Below, in pieces: positions 6,175 through 21,060 of a stretch of 64,000 nt of DNA. The position numbers and the translations under genes are program-made. The notes beneath the pieces were generated by a model, which saw only the letters and a program-made list of their open reading frames with translations, made no database searches and was not told where the DNA came from. The DNA is from Leucobacter massiliensis (GTDB lineage: Bacteria > Actinomycetota > Actinomycetes > Actinomycetales > Microbacteriaceae), in assembly GCF_002982315.1 (NCBI RefSeq), contig NZ_MWZD01000012.1:124001-188000 (forward strand), read 5' to 3'. Within the stretch, counting starts at the first letter, position 1. Each line of letters begins with the position of its first letter.

Positions 6175-8166
6175 ATGACCAGCGCAGTGCTCAGCTCAGG
6201 CATCGACCTCGCAGAACTCGACCCCGCGATCCGGCCGCAGGACGACCTCTTCCGCCACGTCAACGGCAAGTGGATCGCGCGCACGGAGATCCCGGCCGAC
6301 AAGGCCCGATACGGCTCCTTCGCGGTGCTCGCCGAGAACGCCGAGGAGGCCGTGCGCGACATCATCACCGGCACCAGCGCGCCCGCTCCCGGGCTCATCG
6401 AGGGGGGCGCGGATCGTGAGGCCGACAAGGTCGCCGCGCTCTACGCGAGTTTCATGGACGTGGAGCGGGCCGACGCGCTCGGCGCGAGCCCCATCGCGGG
6501 CGATCTCGACCGGGCGCTCCGTGTCGCCTCGGTTCCCGAATTGATCGCGCTGGTCGGCGAACTCGAACGCCAGGGCCTCGGAGGCTTCTTCGGCATGTTC
6601 GTCGACAACGACCCCGGCGATCCCTCGCGCTACATCGTCTTCGTCATGCAGGGCGGGATCGGGCTGCCCGACGAGTCCTACTACCGTGAGGAGCAGTTCG
6701 CGGGGATCCGCGAGCAGTACCGCGCCCACATCGCCCGCATGCTGCGGCTCGCCGGCATCGCCGAGGGCGAGGCCGAGCACCTCTCGGCGCTCGCCTACGA
6801 TCTCGAGCGCCGCATCGCCGCCGCGCACTGGGACAAGGTCGCCAGCCGCGACATCCAGAAGCTCTACAATCTGCGCACCTTCGAGGGCCTGCGCGAGATC
6901 ACCCCCGGGCTCGACTGGCCCGCCTACCTCGCCGCCATGGGCGCCCCGCAGGAGGCCTTCGCCGAGGTCGTCGCCGCCCAGCCCGAAGCGCTCGCCGGCC
7001 TCTCGGAGCTGCTCGTCGAGGACGAGCTGGAGAGCTGGCGGGCGTGGCTCGCCTGGTCGATCGTGCGCGGATCCGCGGCGCTGCTCTCGCAGGAGATCTC
7101 GCGCGCCAACTTCGACTTCTACGGCACCGCGCTCACCGGCGCTCCCGAGCAGCGCGAGCGCTGGCGCCGCGGCGTCTCCTTCGTGGAGGGGGCGATGGGC
7201 GAGGCCGTGGGCCGGCTCTACGTCGAGCGGCACTTCGACGAGCGCTCCAAGAGCGCCATGGACGAGCTCGTCGGGCACCTCATCGAGGCCTACCGCGACT
7301 CCATCCGCCAGCTCGACTGGATGGGCCCCGAGACCCGCGCCCGCGCGCTCGACAAGCTCGACCGCTTCACGCCCAAGATCGGCTACCCGGTGAAGTGGCG
7401 CGACTACTCGGCGCTCGCCGCCGACGCCGGCGATCTGCTGGGGAACTCGCGCCGCGTCGCCGAGTTCGAATTCGCACGCGAACTGGGCAAGGTGGGCAAG
7501 CCCATCGACCGCGACGAGTGGTTCATGACGCCGCAGACCGTCAACGCCTACTACAACCCCGGCTTCAACGAGATCGTCTTCCCTGCGGCGATTCTGCAGC
7601 CGCCCTTCTTCGACGCCTCGTGGGACGCCGCCGCGAACTTCGGCGCGATCGGAGCGGTCATCGGTCACGAGATCGGCCACGGCTTCGACGATCAGGGCTC
7701 CCGCTACGACGGCGACGGCAAGCTCACCGACTGGTGGACCGAGGCCGACCGGGAGGCCTTCGAAGCGCGCACGAAGGCGCTCATCGGCCAGTACAACGCG
7801 CTCTCGCCGGAGGGCGCCGAGGGCCAGACCGTCAACGGCGAGCTCACCATCGGCGAGAACATCGGCGACCTCAGCGGGCTGGAGATCGCCTGGAAGGCCT
7901 ACCTGCGCTCCCTCCACGGCGCCGAACCGCCCGTCATCGACGGGCTGACGGGCGCCGAGCGCTTCTTCCTCGCCTGGGCGCAGGCCTGGCAGCAGAAGTC
8001 GCGTCCCGAGGAGACCGTGCGGCTGCTCACCATCGACCCCCACTCGCCCAACGAGTTCCGCTGCAACCAGATCGTGCGCAACCTCGCCCCCTTCCACGAG
8101 GCCTACGCCACGAAGCCCGGCGACGGCCTCTGGCTCGCCCCCGAGGAGCGCGTGAGCATCTGGTAG
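6175..8166 (+). CDS. pepO: M13 family zinc metallopeptidase (PepO)
   Basis: A 663-residue neprilysin-like oligopeptidase. The N-terminal M13 domain starts near DDLFRHVNGKW. The catalytic part has HEIGH at about 498-502, with the third zinc ligand in GENIGDLSGL near residue 561. The substrate-binding NAYYNP and the NEIVFPAAILQPPFF block are conserved. The final EFRCNQIVRNLAPFHEAY is the usual M13 C-terminus. No signal peptide is evident, so a cytoplasmic role in oligopeptide breakdown is likely. It has its own short divergent promoter region with the MATE gene and a strong terminator 40 bases downstream. Confidence 0.93.
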   Translation: MTSAVLSSGIDLAELDPAIRPQDDLFRHVNGKWIARTEIPADKARYGSFAVLAENAEEAVRDIITGTSAPAPGLIEGGADREADKVAALYASFMDVERADALGASPIAGDLDRALRVASVPELIALVGELERQGLGGFFGMFVDNDPGDPSRYIVFVMQGGIGLPDESYYREEQFAGIREQYRAHIARMLRLAGIAEGEAEHLSALAYDLERRIAAAHWDKVASRDIQKLYNLRTFEGLREITPGLDWPAYLAAMGAPQEAFAEVVAAQPEALAGLSELLVEDELESWRAWLAWSIVRGSAALLSQEISRANFDFYGTALTGAPEQRERWRRGVSFVEGAMGEAVGRLYVERHFDERSKSAMDELVGHLIEAYRDSIRQLDWMGPETRARALDKLDRFTPKIGYPVKWRDYSALAADAGDLLGNSRRVAEFEFARELGKVGKPIDRDEWFMTPQTVNAYYNPGFNEIVFPAAILQPPFFDASWDAAANFGAIGAVIGHEIGHGFDDQGSRYDGDGKLTDWWTEADREAFEARTKALIGQYNALSPEGAEGQTVNGELTIGENIGDLSGLEIAWKAYLRSLHGAEPPVIDGLTGAERFFLAWAQAWQQKSRPEETVRLLTIDPHSPNEFRCNQIVRNLAPFHEAYATKPGDGLWLAPEERVSIW

Positions 8167-10019: not shown

Positions 10020-11005
10020 GCCGGCAGCAGCGCATCGTCAACGTCCTGTCCGTCGCCGGCACCGACCCGACCGGGGGAGCCGGCATCCAGGCCGATCTGA
10101 AGGCGATCGCCGCGGGCGGCGGTTATGGCATGGCCGTGGTGACCGCGCTCGTCGCGCAGAACACCCGGGGCGTGCGCGCGGTGCACGTGCCGCCGATCCC
10201 GTTCCTCACCGCCCAGCTCGACGCCGTCTCCGATGATGTGCGCATCGACGCCGTGAAGATCGGGATGCTCGCGAACGCCGAGGTGATCGGGGCCGTCGCC
10301 GCGTGGCTGCGCCGGGTGCGTCCCCCGCTCGTGGTGCTCGACCCGGTGATGATCGCGGCGAGCGGTGACGCGCTGCTCGACCCCGAGGCGGTCACGGCGC
10401 TGCGCGGGCTGATCCCGCAGGCCGGGCTGATCACGCCGAACCTCCCCGAGCTCGCCGTCCTCGCGGGCGCGGCGGGCGCCGGCGCCGCCGGGCCCGCGGA
10501 CACCTGGGAGGCCGCGCTGGAGCAGGCTCGCCTGGTGGCTTCCGCCCACGGCGTCCGGGTGCTCGCGAAGGCGGGCCACCTGCCGGGGGAGCGCACGCCG
10601 GATGCACTCGTCACCCCCGAGGGCGACACGATCGAGTTCCCCGGGGTGCGGATCGCGACACGGAACACGCACGGCACCGGTTGCTCCCTCTCTGCGGGCA
10701 TCGCAACCCGGGTGGCGCGTCACGGCGGGGACTGGGTGCGCGCGGCGCGTGAGACGAAGGCGTGGCTGCGTGAGAGCCTCGCCGCCGCGGACACCCTCGA
10801 CGTCGGCGGCGGCAGCGGACCGGTGCACCACTTCGCGGGGCTCTGGGCGCGCGGCGGACTTCACACGGCGCCCGAAGCGCAGCAGAACCGCGCGGTGCGC
10901 GGGGACGGCGGTGCCGGGCGGCGGGACGATCAGCCGGCGGGCGCGGCCGCGGAGGTCACGGTCGGCAGGCTCGATGCGGGCCCCAGGCGGTCGCCGTCGC
11001 AGTAG
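10016..11005 (+). CDS. thiD: HMP / HMP-phosphate kinase
   Basis: A 329-residue ribokinase-fold enzyme that phosphorylates hydroxymethylpyrimidine twice, the last salvage step needed to feed ThiE. The family signature AGTDPTGGAGIQADLKA is near the N-terminus; KIGML, VLDPVMIA, TPNLPEL and the anion-hole loop NTHGTGCSLSAGIA follow. The final 25 or so residues after GLWARGG are low-complexity, and their codons overlap the 3' end of the opposing sigma-factor gene by 76 bp, so the tail may be a late extension. The operon has no thiC or thiG, which fits salvage rather than full synthesis. Confidence 0.92.
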   Translation: MSRQQRIVNVLSVAGTDPTGGAGIQADLKAIAAGGGYGMAVVTALVAQNTRGVRAVHVPPIPFLTAQLDAVSDDVRIDAVKIGMLANAEVIGAVAAWLRRVRPPLVVLDPVMIAASGDALLDPEAVTALRGLIPQAGLITPNLPELAVLAGAAGAGAAGPADTWEAALEQARLVASAHGVRVLAKAGHLPGERTPDALVTPEGDTIEFPGVRIATRNTHGTGCSLSAGIATRVARHGGDWVRAARETKAWLRESLAAADTLDVGGGSGPVHHFAGLWARGGLHTAPEAQQNRAVRGDGGAGRRDDQPAGAAAEVTVGRLDAGPRRSPSQ

Positions 11006-12786
11006 CCGAAGCCGAAGCTCCGGAAGGGCCAAGCGTAGAACAGGGGGGTGCTCGCCCGTCCCTCGGCGTCGAGTTCGATGGGCGTCCACAGCCGGGTGGA
11101 CGGCCGTGCGCAGACGGAGGCGCCGGGAATGCCGCTGAAGCCGACCACGAAGGGCGGAAACACCCCCGGCGCACCGGGGTCTTCGGGCCAGGCGCTCAGC
11201 TCCGCCTCGGGCGCCGAGAGCGAGAAGGAGACCCGCTGCGGAGGCTCCCCCGGGAGCGCCGCCTGGCTCACCACGGCCGTGTGCGCGCCGACGGGGAGGG
11301 GGAGGCTCGCGAGGTCCGCCTGCCACGCGCCTCCGGTGTCGGCGTGGACGTCGAGACGGTGTTCCCCGAGGGTCACGGCGACGGCCGAGCCGGGTTCGGC
11401 GGTGCCGACGAGCCGTGGCGCCACCGAGCCGCCGCGCGTGTCCCGGGCCTGCACCGTGAGCGTGGCGGGGGGCGATCCGGGATCGGGGTCCGGCTCGGGA
11501 TCGGGACCCGGCTCGGGACCGGGATCGGGATCCGGCTCCTCCGTCGCGGGGGTGCCGTCATTGCCCGGCTGGGCGTCCGAGCCCGGTGCCCCGCTGTCCT
11601 GCGAGGGCCCCGCGCCGTGCGGAAGGGCCGAGGGAGACCCGTCGCCGTCGGCGGGAGCGTCCGTCGCGGGGCTTGGCTCCGCCGCCCGGGCTGATCCGGG
11701 GCCTGCGCCGCCGGGTGCGGGACGGGCCGGCTCCGAGACGGAGGACGGGCCCGGGGCGGAGCCCGGCAGGGGGTCGGGGAAGGCGAGTGACACGATCAGT
11801 GCGGCGATGCCGACGCTCGCCGCGGCGGCACCGCCGAGCAGGGCTGTGGCGCGCAGCGGGCGCAAGCCGACGGCGGCGTGGGCGGCCGTGGCGCCGCCGG
11901 GGATCGGCAGCAGGCCGGGGCTGAGCGGCAGCGCCGCGGCGAGCAGTACGAGCAGGCCGCGCCGTCCGCCGAGCCTGCGGTCCTCGCGTCGCAGTTCGTC
12001 GCGCAGGGCCGTGCACTCCGGGCAGTCCCGCAGGTGCGCGTCGAGGGTGCGCGCCCGCGGCCGGGGCAGGGATCCGCGCACGTAGCGCGGAAGGGCCTCG
12101 GCCACCTCCGGATGGCTCGCGACGTCTGCGGGCGGCAGTTTGTGGCGCAGCCATGAGAGCCGGAGCCCCTCACGCGCTCGGCGCAGTGTCACCGAGACGG
12201 CGTTGGGGCTGAGCTCGAGCTGCTCGGCCACGCGTGCCCGTGGCGCGTCGTCGACCTCGCTGAGCCACAGCACCCGCTGCCAGCGCTCGGGAAGCGCGCG
12301 GAACGCGGCGACGATCTCGGAGTGTTCTTCGGCTCTGAGCACGGGCTCGTCGCTCGCGGCGGTGGGCTCCCCGTCGAGCTCGACGTTGGTGAGCTGCCAC
12401 TGCTGTTCACGGTAGCGCCGTGCCGCGATGTTGCGGGCGACGCGCAGCAGATAGGGGCGGAACGCCTGCTGCGGGCCGACGCCCCGCTGCAGCTGTTCCC
12501 AGAGGGATTCGAAGGCTTCGGAGACGACGTCCTCGGCGTCGGAGCGTGCGAAGGGGCGCACCACCCGCTCGGCCACGGCGGCGTGGCGTCGCCAGAGTTC
12601 AGCGAATGCGGCACGGTCCCCGGATCGGGCGGCCAGCAGCAGTTCGGCTTCGTCGTCGGCGTCGGGTGCCGGGGGCGTGCCGTCCGGCGCTGTTCGCCCG
12701 TGATCGTGCGATGCGTGCGCGGGCGCGTCGAACGGTGCCGGGGTGCTCCGCCCACCGTCCGCCGTTTCCCGATCCCCAGAGCTCAT
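10930..12786 (-). CDS. ECF sigma factor fused to zinc-finger anti-sigma, membrane and exterior region
   Basis: A 618-residue single chain. Residues about 47-115 are sigma region 2 (FAELWRRH, DAEDVVSEAFESLW) and about 155-212 region 4 (LPERWQRVLWL, LELSPNAVSVTLRRAREGL). A zf-HC2 anti-sigma motif follows: His251, Cys255, Cys258 in HLRDCPEC. Two hydrophobic segments (about 277-297 and 315-336) come next, then about 110 residues rich in Pro, Asp, Gly and Glu, and an exterior Ig-like tail from about 455. The layout suggests a sigma factor held at the membrane by its own anti-sigma part and freed by proteolysis when the outer tail senses something. ATG 12786 has GGGAGG just upstream. It lies divergent from the pilus operon. 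The domain calls are firm; the sensing role is inferred. Confidence 0.85.
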   Translation of the reverse strand: MSSGDRETADGGRSTPAPFDAPAHASHDHGRTAPDGTPPAPDADDEAELLLAARSGDRAAFAELWRRHAAVAERVVRPFARSDAEDVVSEAFESLWEQLQRGVGPQQAFRPYLLRVARNIAARRYREQQWQLTNVELDGEPTAASDEPVLRAEEHSEIVAAFRALPERWQRVLWLSEVDDAPRARVAEQLELSPNAVSVTLRRAREGLRLSWLRHKLPPADVASHPEVAEALPRYVRGSLPRPRARTLDAHLRDCPECTALRDELRREDRRLGGRRGLLVLLAAALPLSPGLLPIPGGATAAHAAVGLRPLRATALLGGAAAASVGIAALIVSLAFPDPLPGSAPGPSSVSEPARPAPGGAGPGSARAAEPSPATDAPADGDGSPSALPHGAGPSQDSGAPGSDAQPGNDGTPATEEPDPDPGPEPGPDPEPDPDPGSPPATLTVQARDTRGGSVAPRLVGTAEPGSAVAVTLGEHRLDVHADTGGAWQADLASLPLPVGAHTAVVSQAALPGEPPQRVSFSLSAPEAELSAWPEDPGAPGVFPPFVVGFSGIPGASVCARPSTRLWTPIELDAEGRASTPLFYAWPFRSFGFGYCDGDRLGPASSLPTVTSAAAPAG

Positions 12787-12852
12787 GCCGCTCCCTGCCT
12801 CCCTGCGCTGTGTGCGACGCTGCGGGCGCTCACCGCGGGCGCCGCCCGAGAA

Positions 12853-12880
12853 CATGTGCGCAGGGGGAGGAAAATGTGAC
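12853..12880 (-). promoter_or_regulatory. Candidate ECF promoter A, facing the sigma gene
   Basis: On the minus strand the site reads GTCACATTTT, and CACATG begins exactly 17 bases after GTCAC. Two more sites with the same spacing lie at 12950 and 13249 facing the pilus operon. The start of transcription would fall about 55 bases before the sigma-gene ATG, which suggests autoregulation. Confidence 0.6.
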
Positions 12881-12949
12881 GGGCCGGAGCGCGCAGCGCG
12901 GGCAATTCCCAGGGATTCTTCAGCTTCACGGAAAAAACGAGGATCTCGC

Positions 12950-12977
12950 GTCACTTTTCTCCCGTCCCCCGCACATA
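12950..12977 (+). promoter_or_regulatory. Candidate ECF promoter B, facing the pilus operon
   Basis: GTCACTTTTC is followed by CACATA exactly 17 bases after GTCAC, the same geometry as sites A and C. It would give a leader of about 370 nt before the pilin start. It lies back to back with site A. Confidence 0.55.
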
Positions 12978-13248
12978 TGAGGCGGGAAGGCACTCCCCGC
13001 CACCGCCGCGAGGCGCGTGGCCGCCTTCTCACCCCTGGCGGTCGCCGCTCCCCGGCGCCCGCGCCGGGCGGGCGCACTCCCCGTGCCCGCCCGGCACCCA
13101 CTCGGGCGTGCGGCGCTGCTGCCGGGCGTCCACGTCGCGACCGATATCCGGTGACGCGGTCCAGGGGTGCGAGTCAGGGTGCCGCGCGAGCGAGTCAAGC
13201 CGGCGCGCGGCAGATGTATCACAGTTCGATAACGGAAGCCGGCCGGGT

Positions 13249-13276
13249 GTCACTTTTCCCGCAGCGCCGGCACGTG
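13249..13276 (+). promoter_or_regulatory. Candidate ECF promoter C, proximal to the pilin gene
   Basis: GTCACTTTTC is followed by CACGTG exactly 17 bases after GTCAC. A transcript from here would start about 70 bases before the pilin GTG. The TTTTC run directly after GTCAC is shared with site B. Confidence 0.6.
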
Positions 13277-13358
13277 TCAAGCGGAGGCCGATCCCGGACC
13301 TCCGTATGCCAGGAGTGAATCCCGCGAGCTGCGGTGGTTCGGGAAAGGAGACGTTCAC

Positions 13359-14876
13359 GTGGCTGAACGTAATAAGCAGCGCCGCTTCGCGGCCGCGATC
13401 GGGGTGGCTGCCGCAGGCCTGCTCGCCCTCACCGGGGTGGGGACCGCCGCGCATGCGGCGCCCAACGACTACGGCAACATCGACGCCGACCGCCAGGGCT
13501 CGCTCACGGTGCACAAGTACCTGCACCAGGACGGCGGCACCGAGGGCGACGTCAGTGAGACCCCGGCCGACGGCGACTTCTCGGACCCGGTCGCCGACGT
13601 GGTCTTCACCGTCTACCCGCTGCTGCAGAACGGCGAGCCCATCGACCTCACCGTCCCCGGCAACTGGGACCAGCTGAAGGACCTCACCCCGGGAGACGCG
13701 TGCACCGCCCCCGCGGGCTTCACCCTCGGCACCCCCCAGGCGCTTCCCGCGACCGACGCGGCGGGCACCGCGACCGCCGCCCTCCCCGTCGGCGTCTACC
13801 AGGTCTGCGAGACCTCGGCCCCGCCGAAGATCGTCGACCGTGCGATCCCCTTCATCCTGGCCATCCCCATGCCGCACGAGAACGGCTGGGTGTACGACGT
13901 GCACGCCTACCCCAAGAACGGCGAGGGCGAGATCGTCAAGTCCGTCGAGCCCCAGCAGAACACCGGGCTCGGCTCCACCGTGCGCTTCCCCGTGACCGTG
14001 CCCGTGCCGACGATGGCACAGAAGTGGACCGCCTTCGCGATCCGTGACACGCTCGACACCCGTCTCACGCCGGTCGCTGCGGCCGACATCGCCGTGACGG
14101 TCGACGGCGCCGCACTCGACCCCTCCTTCTACGAGGTCACCATCGAGGGTCAGCAGATCACGATGAACTTCACCGCCGCGGGCGTCGCATGGCTCAACGA
14201 GGGCCCGGGCGCACAGATCGGCAAGAAGATCCAGGTCGTGTTCGCCGGTGTGGTGAACGCCCCCGGTGACGGGACGATCCCCAACCGGGCCGAGCTGTGG
14301 ACCAACAACCCCGGCTTCGATCCCGACGTCACGCCGCCGCTCCCCTCGAACGAGGTGCGCACGCACTGGGGCGCCCTCGAGGTGCAGAAGCGGGCCGACG
14401 GCACGAGCGGCACCGAGGGCCGCCTGAACGGTGCGGTCTTCGAGGTCTACAACGCCGCCGACCCCTACGCCGCCGACTGCTCGCAGGCCGAGGCCGCCGG
14501 CGATCCGATCTCCGTGCAGGGCGAGACCCGCTTCACCTCGGCCGGCACCGGCGTGATCTCGGTCTCGGGCCTCTTCGTCAGTGACAGCGTGCAGGCCCCC
14601 GTGGATGCGGAGCAGCGCTGCTACGTGCTGAAGGAGGTCGCGGCCCCCGCGGGCTACGTACTCCCGGCGGAGCCCTTCACGGGCGTCGCGGTGCAGGCGG
14701 GCCAGACCGCCGTCTCCGACAACGTCGAGATCATCAACACGCAGCAGGAGGTGCCCGAGCTGCCCCTGACCGGTGCGGCCGGCCAGGTGCTCCTGATCGC
14801 GGGCGGGGTGGCGGCGATCGCCATCGCACTCGGCCTCGTCCTGATGAACCGCCGACGCGGCTCGGTCGAGCGCTGA
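13359..14876 (+). CDS. SpaH/EbpB-type LPXTG major pilin
   Basis: A 505-residue sortase-assembled shaft pilin. The signal peptide ends near AAHAA at about residue 33. The first Ig-like domain begins with GSLTVHKYLHQ. The pilin motif is GWVYDVHAYPKNGEGEIVK, with the Lys that sortase links to the next subunit. A second domain (VRFPVTVPVP and on) is followed by a CnaB-like domain from about residue 340 (ALEVQKRADG) that carries the E-box YVLKEVAAPAGY. The cell-wall sorting signal is LPLTG at 468-472, then a hydrophobic helix and RRRGSVER. The start is GTG 13359 behind GGAAAGGAG. It overlaps the sortase ATG by one base. Confidence 0.93.
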   Translation: MAERNKQRRFAAAIGVAAAGLLALTGVGTAAHAAPNDYGNIDADRQGSLTVHKYLHQDGGTEGDVSETPADGDFSDPVADVVFTVYPLLQNGEPIDLTVPGNWDQLKDLTPGDACTAPAGFTLGTPQALPATDAAGTATAALPVGVYQVCETSAPPKIVDRAIPFILAIPMPHENGWVYDVHAYPKNGEGEIVKSVEPQQNTGLGSTVRFPVTVPVPTMAQKWTAFAIRDTLDTRLTPVAAADIAVTVDGAALDPSFYEVTIEGQQITMNFTAAGVAWLNEGPGAQIGKKIQVVFAGVVNAPGDGTIPNRAELWTNNPGFDPDVTPPLPSNEVRTHWGALEVQKRADGTSGTEGRLNGAVFEVYNAADPYAADCSQAEAAGDPISVQGETRFTSAGTGVISVSGLFVSDSVQAPVDAEQRCYVLKEVAAPAGYVLPAEPFTGVAVQAGQTAVSDNVEIINTQQEVPELPLTGAAGQVLLIAGGVAAIAIALGLVLMNRRRGSVER

Positions 14877-15787
14877 TGCTCCTCGCGAGCAGCGCGGTGC
14901 GGCGCACGCGCCGACGGTGGAGGCCCAGCGCCCTCACCGTGTGCATCGCGCTGCTCGCGATCGGCGGGCTCGTGGCCGGGCTCTACCCCATGAGCGCGGC
15001 CTGGCTGTCGGCCTACAACCAGTCGCAGGTGGTGCGCGGCTACACCTCCGATCTGGCAACGGTGCGGCCCTCGGCCGAGCAGCAGCTCGCCGAGGCCCGC
15101 CGCTACAACGAGGCGCTGAGCGCGGGGGTCGTCCTCGGCCGCAACGCCTCGGTGCCCGTCGGGGACGGCTCCCTCGCGGACGCGTCGCCCGACTACCAGC
15201 GCATGCTGCGCGCGAACGCCGAGGGCACCATGGCCAGGGTCAAGATCCCGAGCATCGACGTCGACCTGCCGATCTACCACGGCACGAGCGACGCGGTGCT
15301 CGACCTCGGCGCCGGTCACCTGGAGGGGTCGCACCTCCCGGTCGGCGGTCCCGGCACCCGCTCGGTCATCACCGCGCACCGGGGCCTCGCGAACGCGACG
15401 ATGTTCAGCAACCTCGACCGGGTGCAGCTGGGAGACACCTTCACCGTCGAGGTCTTCGGCGAGGTGCTCACCTACCGCGTCCGCGAGACGCGGGTGATCG
15501 CGCCGGAGCAGACGGACACCCTTCGTGCGGAGCCGGGGGAGGACCTCGTGACCCTGATCACCTGCACCCCGCTGGGCATCAACACCCACCGGATCATCGT
15601 GACGGGCGAGCGGATCACCCCCACGCCCGAACGGGACCTCCTCTCGGCGGGCGCTGCGCCCACCGTGCCGGGCTTCCCGTGGTGGCTGGTGTACGGCTCG
15701 GCCGGGCTGGCACTGGTCGCCGGCTACGTGGTGTGGCAGGGCGCCGCCGACGCGCGGGCGGGACATCGGAGGGGAAGCGGCACATGA
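14876..15787 (+). CDS. srtC: Class C (pilus) sortase
   Basis: A 303-residue membrane transpeptidase that polymerises pilins. An N-terminal transmembrane helix (about 17-37) and a C-terminal one (about 268-288) frame the sortase barrel, as usual for class C. Catalytic residues are His168 in VITAHRG, Cys230 in TLITCTPLGINTHR and Arg239. The block IPSIDVDLPIYHGT is typical of the class. The usual DPF/DPW lid motif is not obvious in the segment before residue 110. The gene sits between two LPLTG proteins and overlaps both (TGATG before, ATGA after), so expression is coupled. Confidence 0.93.
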   Translation: MLLASSAVRRTRRRWRPSALTVCIALLAIGGLVAGLYPMSAAWLSAYNQSQVVRGYTSDLATVRPSAEQQLAEARRYNEALSAGVVLGRNASVPVGDGSLADASPDYQRMLRANAEGTMARVKIPSIDVDLPIYHGTSDAVLDLGAGHLEGSHLPVGGPGTRSVITAHRGLANATMFSNLDRVQLGDTFTVEVFGEVLTYRVRETRVIAPEQTDTLRAEPGEDLVTLITCTPLGINTHRIIVTGERITPTPERDLLSAGAAPTVPGFPWWLVYGSAGLALVAGYVVWQGAADARAGHRRGSGT

Positions 15788-18700
15788 GCCGAGAGATCGA
15801 AGAGCAGGGACGCCAGGAACGTGGGAACGGAGCGGAGAGACGGATGAGGATGTTGTTCAGCAGGACGAGCGGCGGGAGACGAGCGCGCGGCGCCGCACCC
15901 GCACGCAAGGGATGGCGCCGGATCGGGGCCGGAGCCGTCGCACTCGCCCTGGCCGGGGGGCTGGGCTGGGCGCAGACCGCCCCGGCCACGGCGGCCACGG
16001 TCTACGAGATCGAGGGCGAGTGGCAGGCGGGCACCCCGAACCCGGTGAAGACCGGCGACAACATCGTCTCGGTGTGGCGCTACAACATCAATGACGACGC
16101 ACCCGCACCCGGCAACGCGCCCGTCGACAATGTGACCGTGAACTTCACGGTGCAGCACGGCGTGTTCACCGTGCTGCCGGAGGCCTGCCTCGTCGAGGGC
16201 GTCGACCCCGCCTCCCAGATCTCGGCCGACGGCAGCTCCCTGCGCTGCAATCTCGGCACGCGCGATCAGGGGAGTGCCGAGCTGCTCCTCGCGGGGATCC
16301 GCGCGGTCGGCAACAGCGGTGATCGGGTGAGCGTGGGCGCCGAGATCGGCGGCGTCACGGCGCAGCTGCCTGAGATCCCCATCAAGAACGTGTTCGCCAT
16401 GGATATGAAGTGGGACGGCGGCACGGGAACCCTGAACGAGGGAACCCAGCAGAAGGCGAACTTCCCGTGGTCGCTGCGGCACGCACCCGGCGGCGAGCCG
16501 GGACCCCAGACGATCACCTACGACCTCACGTTCACCGCCTCCGGCGGGGAGGTCCTGCTCCCGCACGCGGACGGCTGTGACGTGATACCCGGCTACTTCG
16601 CCGGGCATCCGCGGTCCGATGCTGATTCGAGCCCCCCGCGACGCGCGCCGTTCGTCACCCAGTGCAAGCTGGAGCCGACCGGCACGAACACCATGCGGCT
16701 CACCCTCACGGGCATCGACTACTCGAAGACGCTCCTGCCGACGGAGGACTCCGGCGGAGCGCCGTTGCCCACCGACTGGGACGTGGTCGCCGCCGGTGAA
16801 GTGAACGTCCAGTGGACGTGGAAGGGCACCACCACCCTCACCATCGACGCGAAGCCGACCGGCCCCTATGTCTCGGTCGACGGCGCGACTTCGAACGACC
16901 TGACGAACAACAACTCGACGAGCCGCGCCGTCACGCGCGGTATCTTCACGGGCGGCTGGCGCTTCAGCGGCCTGCGGCCGCAGCTGCCGGGAACGCAGTG
17001 GACGGATACCTCCCGGGCGATGGCCGGCGACACGATTCTCGCGAATGCCGGCGTCCTGCCTCCGGCGCCTGGGGAGCCCTCCGCCGGACTCTGCGTCATC
17101 ATGGACTCCAAGTACGTCGACTTCGTGGATGCGGTCGTGGGAAGTCTCGAAGAAGGGGTCGTCACGCCCTACCCGGGCATCACCTACTGGTACTACACCG
17201 GCACGGGCGTGAACAACAACCTCAACCCCAACAGCACCAGCTACAACCCGAACACCTTCACCTGCGACGGGAGCGGCTGGACCACCACCAAGCCGAGCAA
17301 TCCCGCCTCGATCCGTGCCGTCCGCGCAGAGATCACCGCCGCCGCAGGAGCGAACGTCACCGAGAGCCTGGCCATGCTGTACGTGCACAGCCGGATCAAG
17401 AGCAATGTGCCCGTGGGCCAGGACATCTGGACCTGGATGTCCTACAACCGGAACGGCGGCACGAGCTGGCAGAACCCGACCCGGTCCACCAATCCGAGCG
17501 ACGTGCCGGCGACGGGCACATTGACCCCGGGCACCCGGTACCCCTTCACCTCGTCCGGGCGTGACATCATGCGCGTGATCGCGGCGAACCCGCGGGTCAC
17601 CAAGGTCGCGGACCAGGACTACTCGGTTCCGGGAGCCACCGTGCAGTACACCGTGACCTATCGTGCCGAGGCGGGCTCGAACGTGACGGTTCCGAACTAC
17701 ACCCTCACGGACACCCTGCCCGCGGGCACCAGTTATGTGCCGGGCAGCGCCTCGACGGCGCCGTCCAGCCAGAGCGGGCAGAAGCTCACCTGGAATCTCG
17801 CGAACGTTCAGACGAACACCGACTACGTCATGACGTACAGCGTGCGCCTGCCCGCGGACGCCGAACCGGGGTCGGCCTTCACGAACGAGGTGACGGCGAA
17901 CATCAGCGGCTCGACCGCGACGGCGACGGACACGGTGCGCATCCGCGACGGCGGCCTCGTGCTGCTCACCAAGACCGCGGCGGCCAGCAAGGTGCCGCAC
18001 AACGGCGGAGCCGCCGAGGACTCGTGGACCGTGCGACTCACCTCGACGGACACCCGCAGCTCGGCCTTCACGGACACCATCGACGTCCTGCCCTACAACG
18101 GTGACGGCCGAGGCACCTCCTTCACCGGCGGCTACCGGCTGAGCGGCCCGGTGCAGGCGGCTGCGAACGCGACCGTCTACTACACGACGGCCGATCCGGC
18201 GACGCTCGTCGACGATCCCGCCCACGCCTCGAACGGCTCGGCCGGCAACGTCAGCGGCAACACCGTCGGCTGGTCGACCGACTTCACCGCCGAGGCCACG
18301 GCCGTGCGCGTGATCGGTCCGGCGCTCGCCGGTGGCTCCACCCAGGAGTTCGTCGTCGCCGTCGTCACCGAGGGCGCCACCCACGGCGACCGCTACGTCA
18401 ACCGCGCCGAGTCGCGCGCCTCCCGCCAGGAGCTGCGCATGCGCACCTCCGGAGCCTTCGAGATCGGCGCCGTGAACTCGGTGACGATCAAGAAGTACGT
18501 CGCTGACGCTGAGCAGGAGTGGCACGACGCCAACGACATCGACGACGCACCGAGCGTCCACACCGGCGACACCCTGCCCTATCGTCTCGTCATCACGAAC
18601 ACCGGCGACCAGCCGCTGCAGAACGTCGTCGTCACCGACGACCGGGTGGATCTCGCGAAGCTCGACCCGCTGCCGGAGGGCCTCACCGTCGTCGACGGCA

Positions 18701-19368
18701 AGGCCGTGATCCCGGAGCTGCAACCCGGCGAGGAGAACCAGCTCGTGGTCGAGTACCAGGTGCCGGTCGCTGCGGGAACGCCCGCCGGCAACCTGGTCAA
18801 CACCGCCTGCGTGGTGCCGCAGCCCGTCGACCCCGATGACGAGACCGCCCCCTCGGTTCCCGCCGAGGAGGACTGCGATCCGGCGGTCGTGATCGTGCAG
18901 CCCTCCTCGCTGTCCTGGGAGAAGGTCGCGGCGGGTACGCCCGACACCGAGCGTCTCGCCGGCTCCGAGTGGGAGCTCACCCCCGTCGACGAGAACGACG
19001 AGCCCGTCGGCGACCCGGTCCCGGTGACCGATTGCGTGGCCGACTCCGCCGCAGCGTGCGACGGACCCGATGTCGATCCCGCCGCGGGCGCATTCCGCAT
19101 CGACCCGCTCGACGACGGCCGCTACCGTCTCGTCGAGACGCGGGCGCCCGCCGGCTACCAGCTCGACGCGACGCCCCGCTTCGTCGAGGTGCTCGGCGAG
19201 ACCGCCCTGGAGCAGCCCATCGAGAACGTCCTGCAGGAGGGACCGGAGCTGCCGCTCACCGGCGGGGTGGGCACCCTCGGCTTCTGGGTCGGGACGGGAC
19301 TGCTGAGCGTGCTCGCGGCCGGCGGTGTGCTGTGGCAGCGCCGGCGACGCCGCGCGGGCGCTCGCTGA
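15784..19368 (+). CDS. Large LPXTG tip/adhesin pilin
   Basis: A 1194-residue surface protein. The signal region is long: a charged N-terminus of about 45 residues, then a hydrophobic core and cleavage near PATAATV. About 550 residues of unique, Thr/Asn-rich N-terminal region have no motif I recognise and may be the adhesive head. Next come DUF11-type stalk repeats (VTKVADQDYSVPGATVQYTV; KYVADAEQEW; LVITNTGDQPLQNVVVTDD) and a CnaB/SpaA-like domain with E-box YRLVETRAPAGYQ. LPLTG stands at about 1156-1160 with an anchor helix and RRRRRAGAR. No clear Lys pilin motif is seen, which fits a terminal subunit. ATG 15784 overlaps the sortase stop. Confidence 0.88.
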   Translation: MSREIEEQGRQERGNGAERRMRMLFSRTSGGRRARGAAPARKGWRRIGAGAVALALAGGLGWAQTAPATAATVYEIEGEWQAGTPNPVKTGDNIVSVWRYNINDDAPAPGNAPVDNVTVNFTVQHGVFTVLPEACLVEGVDPASQISADGSSLRCNLGTRDQGSAELLLAGIRAVGNSGDRVSVGAEIGGVTAQLPEIPIKNVFAMDMKWDGGTGTLNEGTQQKANFPWSLRHAPGGEPGPQTITYDLTFTASGGEVLLPHADGCDVIPGYFAGHPRSDADSSPPRRAPFVTQCKLEPTGTNTMRLTLTGIDYSKTLLPTEDSGGAPLPTDWDVVAAGEVNVQWTWKGTTTLTIDAKPTGPYVSVDGATSNDLTNNNSTSRAVTRGIFTGGWRFSGLRPQLPGTQWTDTSRAMAGDTILANAGVLPPAPGEPSAGLCVIMDSKYVDFVDAVVGSLEEGVVTPYPGITYWYYTGTGVNNNLNPNSTSYNPNTFTCDGSGWTTTKPSNPASIRAVRAEITAAAGANVTESLAMLYVHSRIKSNVPVGQDIWTWMSYNRNGGTSWQNPTRSTNPSDVPATGTLTPGTRYPFTSSGRDIMRVIAANPRVTKVADQDYSVPGATVQYTVTYRAEAGSNVTVPNYTLTDTLPAGTSYVPGSASTAPSSQSGQKLTWNLANVQTNTDYVMTYSVRLPADAEPGSAFTNEVTANISGSTATATDTVRIRDGGLVLLTKTAAASKVPHNGGAAEDSWTVRLTSTDTRSSAFTDTIDVLPYNGDGRGTSFTGGYRLSGPVQAAANATVYYTTADPATLVDDPAHASNGSAGNVSGNTVGWSTDFTAEATAVRVIGPALAGGSTQEFVVAVVTEGATHGDRYVNRAESRASRQELRMRTSGAFEIGAVNSVTIKKYVADAEQEWHDANDIDDAPSVHTGDTLPYRLVITNTGDQPLQNVVVTDDRVDLAKLDPLPEGLTVVDGKAVIPELQPGEENQLVVEYQVPVAAGTPAGNLVNTACVVPQPVDPDDETAPSVPAEEDCDPAVVIVQPSSLSWEKVAAGTPDTERLAGSEWELTPVDENDEPVGDPVPVTDCVADSAAACDGPDVDPAAGAFRIDPLDDGRYRLVETRAPAGYQLDATPRFVEVLGETALEQPIENVLQEGPELPLTGGVGTLGFWVGTGLLSVLAAGGVLWQRRRRRAGAR

Positions 19369-19515: not shown

Positions 19516-20484
19516 GTGATGCCGGGAGCAGAAGTGTCGCGGACGGACCGCTTCGAGCGGCGGAACCGTCTGTTCTCGGAGCGTCCTTTCCACCGTCTCG
19601 ACGTGCAGTTCCACGGTCTGCAGGACATCCCGCACAACCCCCACCTGCAGGAGTACCTCTACACCGCCGGCATCGAGATCTCCCGCATCGAGGCCGCGCA
19701 CGCACTGCGCGCGCGCATCGCGCACTTCCCCGAGTTCACCTTCGTGCACGCCGTGGTGCCGCCGCTCACGATCGTCTGGAGACGGGACCGCCTCTCGATC
19801 GGCCGCGCCCTCGTGCTGCTCGTGCGCGACGGCGGCCTCGAGTTCCCGGACGGAGCGCCCGTGGTGCGCCGCGAACCGGGCGCCTACCTCGTGCTCCCGG
19901 GGGACACCCCCGTGGAGATCACGGCCACCCGTCCGCGGACGGAGGTCGTCTACTTCAGCGTGCCCGCGCGCTTCGTCCGGGGGGTGCTCGACGCCGGGGA
20001 GGCATCCGTCTCGCCGACTCCGCTGCCGAGCGCGCTGCTGGCCCCCATGTATGCCTTCGCGGCGAACCTCTGCGCCCTGTCGCTCACGGACATCGACGAC
20101 TTCTCTCCGCTGGAGTCGGCGGCGGAGGAGATCGCCCGCTCCACCGTGCGACTCATCGTCGGCCTCCCGGAACGCAGATCCCCGTCGCTTTTCAGCACCG
20201 CCGTGGAGCTGATCCTCGACGAATACCCCGATCGTGCCCTCAACAGCGCGCGCCTCGCGGAACGGCTGAAGGTCTCATCCCGTACGGTCCAGCTCGCCTT
20301 CCAGGCCGAGGGGACCACCGTGTCCGGGACGATCCGCCGCGTGCGCGCCGCCGCTGCCGCGCGCATCGCGCGGGAGCAGCCGGAGTTGCGCCGAGCGAGG
20401 ATCGCCGAGCTCACCGGCTTCGGCTCCGTCGACGCGCTCGAACGCGCCCGGAACGCGGTGCGGCGCCGGGATCACGTGTCCTGA
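19516..20484 (+). CDS. AraC-like transcriptional regulator
   Basis: A 322-residue protein. The N-terminal part up to about residue 175 resembles a cupin-like ligand domain (VRREPGAYLVLPGDTPVEITA). The C-terminal part, about 230-318, is an AraC-type double helix-turn-helix (LNSARLAERLKVSSRTVQLAF; RIAELTGFGSVDALERA). GTG 19516 and ATG 19519 both lie behind GGAGGGGAGG; the GTG is given. It is placed directly downstream of the pilus operon on the same strand, so it may add control there, but no target site is visible. Its last 210 bp overlap the opposing sigma gene. Confidence 0.78.
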   Translation: MMPGAEVSRTDRFERRNRLFSERPFHRLDVQFHGLQDIPHNPHLQEYLYTAGIEISRIEAAHALRARIAHFPEFTFVHAVVPPLTIVWRRDRLSIGRALVLLVRDGGLEFPDGAPVVRREPGAYLVLPGDTPVEITATRPRTEVVYFSVPARFVRGVLDAGEASVSPTPLPSALLAPMYAFAANLCALSLTDIDDFSPLESAAEEIARSTVRLIVGLPERRSPSLFSTAVELILDEYPDRALNSARLAERLKVSSRTVQLAFQAEGTTVSGTIRRVRAAAAARIAREQPELRRARIAELTGFGSVDALERARNAVRRRDHVS

Positions 20485-21060
20485 GACGCCCGCCCCCTCG
20501 GCGAGCCACGCGCTGCGCAGGCCCGCCCGCGCCCGCCGGCCGAGCGCCGATACCGCGTTCGGCTCGAGCGAGAGCTGCCGGGCGATCTCTCCGCGCGAGT
20601 GCCCCTCCACGAGCTGCAAGCGCAGCACCGTCCGCCAGCGCTCCGGCATCGCGTCGAACGCGGCGCGCAGCAGCCGCTGCTCCTCGGCCCGCAGCAGCGC
20701 TTCGTCGGCTCCGGCGGCTCGCGCTCCGGTCAGCGCGTCGAGCTGCTCACCGTCGAGGCCGGAGACCTCGTGACGGCGCTGCTGGAAGTGGCGGGCGGTG
20801 AGGTTGCGGGAGACCGCGATCAGGTACGCGCGGAAGTACTGCCGCGGGCCTCCGCCCGCGAGCAGCTGGCTCCACAGCTGTGCGAAGGCCTCCGCCACCA
20901 TGTCTTCCGCGGCGTCGCGAGCGAGCGTGCGCACCGCGGCGATGGCGGCGCCGACGTGACGCCGCCACAGTTCCGCGTACGCGCCGCGCTCGGCCCGCCG
21001 CGCCGCGGCCAGCAGTTCCTCCTCCGTGTGATCGCACCACGAACGTCCCCGTTTCGGCAT
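20275..21060 (-). CDS. ECF sigma factor, short paralogue lacking an anti-sigma part
   Basis: 261 residues. Region 2 (YAELWRRH, AAEDMVAEAFAQLWSQL) and region 4 (MPERWRTVLRLQLVEGHSRGE, LEPNAVSALGRRARAGL) are clearly similar to the fusion sigma factor at 10930-12786, including the shared PNAVS core. Recognisable sigma sequence stops near residue 195. The remaining 65 residues are encoded antisense to the AraC gene and look like read-through, with no zinc finger or membrane segment. It may be a free sigma factor or a copy cut short when the AraC gene arrived. ATG 21060 is the natural start. Confidence 0.75.
   Translation of the reverse strand: MPKRGRSWCDHTEEELLAAARRAERGAYAELWRRHVGAAIAAVRTLARDAAEDMVAEAFAQLWSQLLAGGGPRQYFRAYLIAVSRNLTARHFQQRRHEVSGLDGEQLDALTGARAAGADEALLRAEEQRLLRAAFDAMPERWRTVLRLQLVEGHSRGEIARQLSLEPNAVSALGRRARAGLRSAWLAEGAGVSGHVIPAPHRVPGAFERVDGAEAGELGDPRSAQLRLLPRDARGSGGAHAADRPGHGGPLGLEGELDRTG

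Follow-up and report, generated by a model that had tools for sequence, protein, structure and literature searches.

A sigma factor/zinc-finger fusion with predicted promoters at its own gene, a sortase pilus operon and a candidate small RNA in Leucobacter massiliensis

For the extracytoplasmic function (ECF) sigma factors of the ECF48, ECF52 and ECF53 groups, the point of reference here being the ECF52 protein SCO4117 of Streptomyces coelicolor, the available excerpts of two published accounts propose release from the membrane by proteolysis and suggest autoregulation (PMC5826349, PMC8999054). For C-rich regulatory RNAs, the excerpted literature describes the LhrC small RNAs of Listeria, which carry CUCCC loops and repress translation of a cell-wall adhesin (PMC4132741), and the actinobacterial 6C RNA (RF01066), with two C-rich stem-loops (PMC4046766). 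Here, we analyzed a 64,000-nucleotide stretch of the L. massiliensis genome (referred to as the window; contig NZ_MWZD01000012.1, positions 124,001 to 188,000), in which an ECF sigma/zinc-finger fusion gene and a sortase pilus operon are separated by a region containing three matching sites, denoted A, B and C. The probable overall explanation is that these sites are promoters read by the fusion sigma, for its own gene (A), a small RNA (B) and the pilus operon (C). For sites A and C, the comparison of sequences makes this assignment quite likely; the proposal that site B drives a small RNA, which is based on site orientation and predicted folds, stands at about even chances.

The pattern GTCAC-N17-CACRTR matched exactly three times in a scan of the window, at the positions and in the orientations reported by an earlier, sequence-only reading of this DNA. 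Site A (12853-12880) lies on the minus strand and is the predicted promoter of the fusion gene itself. Sites B (12950-12977) and C (13249-13276) lie on the plus strand; B is the predicted promoter of a small RNA running away from the fusion gene, and C that of the pilus operon. GTCAC would be the -35 element, and the C[AT]C located 17 nt further on would be the start of the -10 element. The TTTT that was said to follow GTCAC immediately in all three sites does so in B and C; in A, a single A intervenes. With transcription assumed to start 7 nt past the 28-nt match, the predicted leaders are ~60 nt long from site A and ~76 nt from site C. A consensus scan of positions 12700-13420 found no housekeeping sigma-70 promoters. 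Between sites A and B, the minus strand contains a short stem that, with its T run, resembles a terminator (12937-12949). A GATAACGG/GGTAACG-like word at ~13228-13238, shortly before the pilin promoter, was also seen by eye in the pilin leaders of loci L041, L056, L059 and L092, and is perhaps an activator site.

The sequence-only reading considered identical spacing in three sites hard to obtain by chance. In 100 dinucleotide shuffles of the window, the pattern occurred 0.10 times on average and at most 2 times, never reaching three, and a stricter form, GTCACNTTT-N13-CAC, had 3 matches in the window and none in the shuffles. A genome-wide scan (3,136,406 bases in 24 contigs), done as the proposed check of rarity, found the strict form at sites A, B and C and nowhere else, with no match for the reversed-pattern control. 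A contig scan gave three remote matches. These counts, together with the recurrence of the element before orthologues (see below), make coincidence in GC-rich DNA an extremely improbable source of the shared spacing, even when it is taken into account that the looser pattern occurs once elsewhere in the genome (4 matches, 3 of them sites A, B and C), that its reversed control matched twice, and that one third of the class I sites in the genus (4/12) have no visible link to a fusion.

The suggested comparison with relatives showed that the element recurs before orthologous fusion genes and before neighboring pilin or LPXTG genes. Thus, neither high frequency of the motif nor its absence from relatives, which the sequence-only reading had named as refuting, was observed. 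A scan for the class I element, GTCACTTTTC-N11..13-CAC, located 12 sites, distributed over 9 of the 54 genomes; the reversed control gave 3. Two of these are window sites B and C, and three face fusion genes (G019, G007, G021). One (G068) points towards an open frame close to the end of a contig, and the first ~43 residues of this frame resemble the L061 fusion. One (G030:C41) follows a fusion gene of the same strand at a distance of 20 bp, and another (G030:C35) lies directly behind an LPXTG gene. The four without a visible fusion link are in G035, G028, G032 and G030:C69; at the G028 site, an LPXTG gene is located ~1.1 kb off on the opposite strand. Two class I sites with no fusion nearby, at 6708 (+) in L084 and 6245 (+) in L087, precede genes for a 982-residue membrane-type protein and a 396-residue hydrophobic protein, respectively, and are possibly distant regulon members or chance matches.

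A wider regular expression was then applied in the sense direction to a set of 133 leaders, from which 2 duplicates were dropped to leave 70 fusion and 61 LPXTG leaders. The class I element was found in 7 of the fusion and 8 of the LPXTG leaders. It faces the fusion gene in L054, L056, L059, L061 and L064 and, in all of these except L056, is common to the fusion gene and its LPXTG neighbor, which in L059 is a pilin. In the leader of the L056 pilin, the element is present merely in degraded form (ATCAC).

The class II element, GCGTCAGAT-N16-GTCT (GTCAG-N18-GTCT), which accompanies a sister clade of the fusions, gave 17 sites in 8 of the 54 genomes and none in the reversed control. Fifteen of these are within fusion/pilus loci (G003, G005, G006, G012, G013, G021) and two are outside (G016 and G000:C8); a GTCGG variant was identified by eye in L172. 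The genome of the window contains both types: sites A, B and C are of class I, and the remaining pilus loci of this genome, L041 and L042, have class II sites. In a tree of 76 sigma domains (13 class I rows, 10 class II rows and 53 unlabelled), the two classes part by one change, and no label shuffle out of 500 was as low (mean, 7.8), a test that is inflated by near-copies among the rows. Twelve of the 13 class I rows fall in one clade of 20, the 13th being the second sigma of L064, and the 10 class II rows form a clade of their own with a support of 100/100. Because labels were assigned per locus, three of the labelled rows (the second sigmas of the window, L064 and L172) have no site of their own. 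That promoter type tracks the sigma clade supports promoters read by the sigma and, with the sites preceding fusion orthologues, is consistent with the autoregulated ECF promoter family foreseen by the sequence-only reading.

The sites might instead be operators of another regulator, such as the AraC-type protein annotated at 19516-20484 (+), and an AraC-type gene is indeed found near the fusion also in L056, L059 and L172. However, no AraC relative was found in L054, L061 or L064. The element lacks a dyad, keeps a constant 17-nt spacing and is oriented towards its gene, and its type follows the sigma clade, all of which count against an AraC operator; we regard this alternative as very unlikely. 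Some results do weigh against promoters read by the fusion sigma. The clade test leaves out the 53 unlabelled rows, 8 of which lie inside the class I clade, most fusion leaders contain neither element (class I in 7/70, class II in 2/70), and the tandem class II loci gave no sense site comparable to A.

Site B ends ~380 bp upstream of the pilin start, and a strong hairpin is located within this interval. The predicted small RNA (12983..13095, +) is ~110 nt long. In the predicted fold, the terminal hairpin (13063-13095, +) has 13 bp and the loop ACUCCCC, and CUCCC is unpaired in three places, including this loop. The fold of 12983-13100 has a z-score of -4.58, and none of 200 shuffles was as stable. 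No Rfam family matched positions 12700-13500 at E up to 5, and a scan of the loci at gathering score returned only an M-box and tRNAs. As for a small protein encoded within the RNA, the candidate is a GTG frame with no clear ribosome site by eye.

Antisense-facing sites, pointing away from the fusion gene, were found upstream of the fusion in the window and in L041, L042, L049, L050, L051, L055, L062, L067, L089, L092, L094 and L117. Others occur in L064, where it is the surface gene's own site, in L071/L091, a single locus from another family in which it lies beside a coding start, and, by eye, in L172. We folded the 13 stretches behind these sites that remained after leaving out L064, L071/L091 and L117, the window included. 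An apical CCCC loop was present in 11 of the 13 (shuffle means, 0.04-0.41), and 12 were stabler than their shuffles, with z-scores of -2.2 to -12.3, the exception being L062 (-0.62). Since L067/L089 and L092/L094 are near-copies and L041/L042 are paralogues, the 11 C-loop stretches represent ~8 lineages, window included; thus, a predicted C-loop RNA lies behind a site pointing off the fusion in ten loci besides the window, ~seven of them independent. Tested singly, the C loops of L067, L089, L092, L094 and L172 were equalled by at most 2.5% of shuffles. Between L041 and L042, all 44 shared pairs are kept, with 5 compensatory changes, while differences, gaps included, affect 35 of the 64 unpaired columns, a conservation of pairs that is biased by the derivation of the fold from the same two rows. 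L051 and L172 reproduce the full A/B/C order with promoter letters of their own.

In the sequence-only reading, sites B and C both faced the pilin, and the promoter family tied the fusion protein to pilus expression in a self-contained regulon. The comparison supports this for A and C; B is probably a small-RNA promoter rather than a second pilin promoter. Site B could also be an additional pilin promoter, distal to C, whose transcript would have a long structured leader, and the hairpin could be an attenuator in such a leader. In favor of this, site B is aimed at the pilin with no gene intervening, read-through would be possible at a hairpin without a U tract, and in L064 the surface gene is served by a lone site that is followed by a hairpin. 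Against it, site C is already at the usual distance from the pilin, and in the six tandem loci L041, L042, L067, L089, L092 and L094 the corresponding site and its predicted RNA are directed towards the tip gene's 3' end, which excludes a leader role in those loci. We consider this alternative rather unlikely for site B. Alternatively, the hairpin of the tandem loci might terminate the pilus operon; no gene ends at the hairpin in the window, L051 and L172, which are the divergent loci.

The small-RNA interpretation of site B has its own difficulties. The hairpin at 13063-13095 has no U tract, and a plus-strand terminator scan was empty there. By themselves, the C loops of the window RNA are unremarkable, as 31% of shuffles have as many, and the L049 and L062 folds lack a CCCC loop. 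In L054, L056, L059, L060, L061 and L063, six class I loci where a site faces the fusion or lies nearby, no antisense-facing site was seen. The plain count of hairpins upstream of fusions is only mildly raised (antisense 11/70 and sense 6/70, vs 21/288 and 17/288 for other genes). Finally, pairing between the RNA and the fusion leader is at the 16th percentile or worse in the nine other loci tested, and is inconsistent for regulon mRNAs.

In the window, the RNA could pair with positions -9 to -1 of the leader of the fusion gene through nine contiguous base pairs, which places this pairing at the 3.8th percentile of 236 control leaders, and L172 has a longer stretch at the 5th percentile. Self-targeting as a general rule is nevertheless not supported, the results being inconsistent over the loci tested. 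By analogy with LhrC, the RNA may repress translation through its CUCCC loops; it would probably pair with G-rich ribosome-binding sites and repress in trans. Among fusion genes, 25 of 70 have GGGGA within the 60 nt that precede the start, vs 20 of 196 other genes, an excess that is no argument for pairing, since the chosen start codons favor purine-rich leaders and GGGGA is absent from the leaders of the six RNA-bearing tandem class II loci (L041, L042, L067, L089, L092 and L094).

The fusion protein (618 residues; 10930..12786, -) was delineated by Pfam, NCBIfam, translation and hydropathy. Pfam matches identified ECF sigma regions 2 and 4, followed by an anti-sigma-type zf-HC2 zinc finger (28.8 bits vs a cut-off of 22.2). 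Hydropathy alone indicates hydrophobic stretches near residues 277-295 and 314-336, with peaks of ~2.0-2.1 over 19 residues at 277 and 316. These are followed by a proline-rich linker and a C-terminal region of unassigned fold, for which a single-sequence structure model was poor (mean pLDDT 50). The last 190 residues matched no Pfam family at E up to 1, and hence no carbohydrate-binding domain was found; the orthologues have weak, below-cut-off matches to Ig-like Big_13. In a mechanism modeled on the proposals for ECF52-type proteins, an outside signal would act on the C-terminal part and release the sigma domain, either through inactivation of the zinc finger or through proteolysis. The freed sigma would then transcribe its own gene from site A, giving positive feedback, the pilin-sortase-tip operon from site C, and the ~110-nt CUCCC-loop RNA from site B, ending at the 13063-13095 hairpin, as a third output of the regulon.

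According to Pfam and NCBIfam, the pilus operon (all on the plus strand) encodes a SpaH/EbpB-family LPXTG-anchored major pilin (13359..14876), a class C (pilin) sortase (14876..15787) and a large surface protein (15784..19368), likely the tip or minor pilin, that has an LPXTG signal as well as isopeptide-forming and SpaA domains. A SpaA-type pilus is thus indicated by an LPXTG major pilin, a class C sortase and an isopeptide-domain surface protein sharing one cluster. Further downstream, another ECF sigma domain is encoded at 20275-21060 (-), overlapping the 3' end of the AraC-type gene. It lacks both zinc finger and membrane part and shares about half of its residues with the fusion's sigma domain, and no class I or II site was found upstream of it.

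Matches to the fusion were found in at least 44 of the 60 genomes searched, its own included, and neighborhoods were fetched for many of the matches listed, a subset. Pilins gave 88 matches in 54 genus genomes; among the 63 used (genomes G000-G036), 20 had a listed fusion within 10 kb, compared with 1.6 expected from uniform placement. G024 and G034 have at least 18 and at least 21 fusion matches, respectively, many adjoining LPXTG genes, an expansion of surface-protein/sigma pairs. In G026 (L170, L171), three equally scoring copies of a pilin/tip pair were observed with no fusion sigma gene in the fetched stretches. Outside the family, plasmid NZ_CP013746.1 of Arthrobacter alpinus (Micrococcaceae; L190) carries contiguous genes for a pilin, a class C sortase, a SpaA-type protein and a fused sigma; since this plasmid is typed as mobilizable, horizontal spread is suggested. 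Its pilin leader contains GTCAC-N17-GTCT by eye, and the class I and II patterns gave no fusion-facing or antisense-facing site on it. For another Arthrobacter plasmid, the stretch shown contains the pilus genes but lists no sigma gene, and a plasmid DNA search with a stretch of L041 gave no match.

Pili, sortases and anchored sigma factors are already known; what is new is their combination with clade-tracking promoter types and a predicted C-loop RNA. We tentatively propose a portable module in which a membrane-tethered sigma fusion with a promoter type private to it controls an operon for a sortase pilus or LPXTG protein and a divergent, sigma-dependent C-loop small RNA; copies of the module within one genome would have diverged to non-crossing promoter types. 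If so, a single cell would operate a number of independent surface-adhesin switches, and each would have a regulatory RNA of its own. The one-protein sigma switch would join cell-surface sensing directly to pilus expression in actinobacteria. For fusion sigma factors, which are little studied, the analysis also yields the predicted promoter letters of two clades, along with natural sigma/promoter pairs possibly free of cross-talk and predicted small RNAs outside the matches of the Rfam scans run, whose role is open to simple reporter tests.

In a limited search of open-licence papers, no publication connected sortase pili with a fused ECF sigma, and none described a small RNA transcribed divergently from the gene of such a fusion. 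The fusion resembles ECF52, ECF48 and ECF53 proteins, as far as these are described in the excerpts, in its sigma domain, zinc finger, putative membrane part and long proline-rich extension (PMC5826349, PMC8999054). Unlike ECF52, it has no detected carbohydrate-binding domain in its last 190 residues, and it is therefore classed only as working like ECF52. Its partner genes, sortase pili or LPXTG proteins, also differ, and so does its promoter from the ECF52-type motif CSGYN-17-SRHA given in the excerpted text. The -35 element TGTCACA of ECF41 resembles GTCAC, whereas its -10 element is CGTC, its spacer is 16 +/- 1, and the proteins are described, in the part of the paper available, without a zinc finger-membrane fusion (PMC3426412). 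For the RNA, identity with 6C RNA or another Rfam family was rejected, as no model matched, the RF01066 covariance model having no hit in the whole genome or the loci scanned; unlike 6C RNA, the predicted RNAs adjoin sigma fusions. LhrC belongs to another phylum and, according to the excerpt, is controlled by LisRK (PMC4132741), but the predicted fold of the window RNA shares with it the repeated unpaired CUCCC, including that of the terminal loop.
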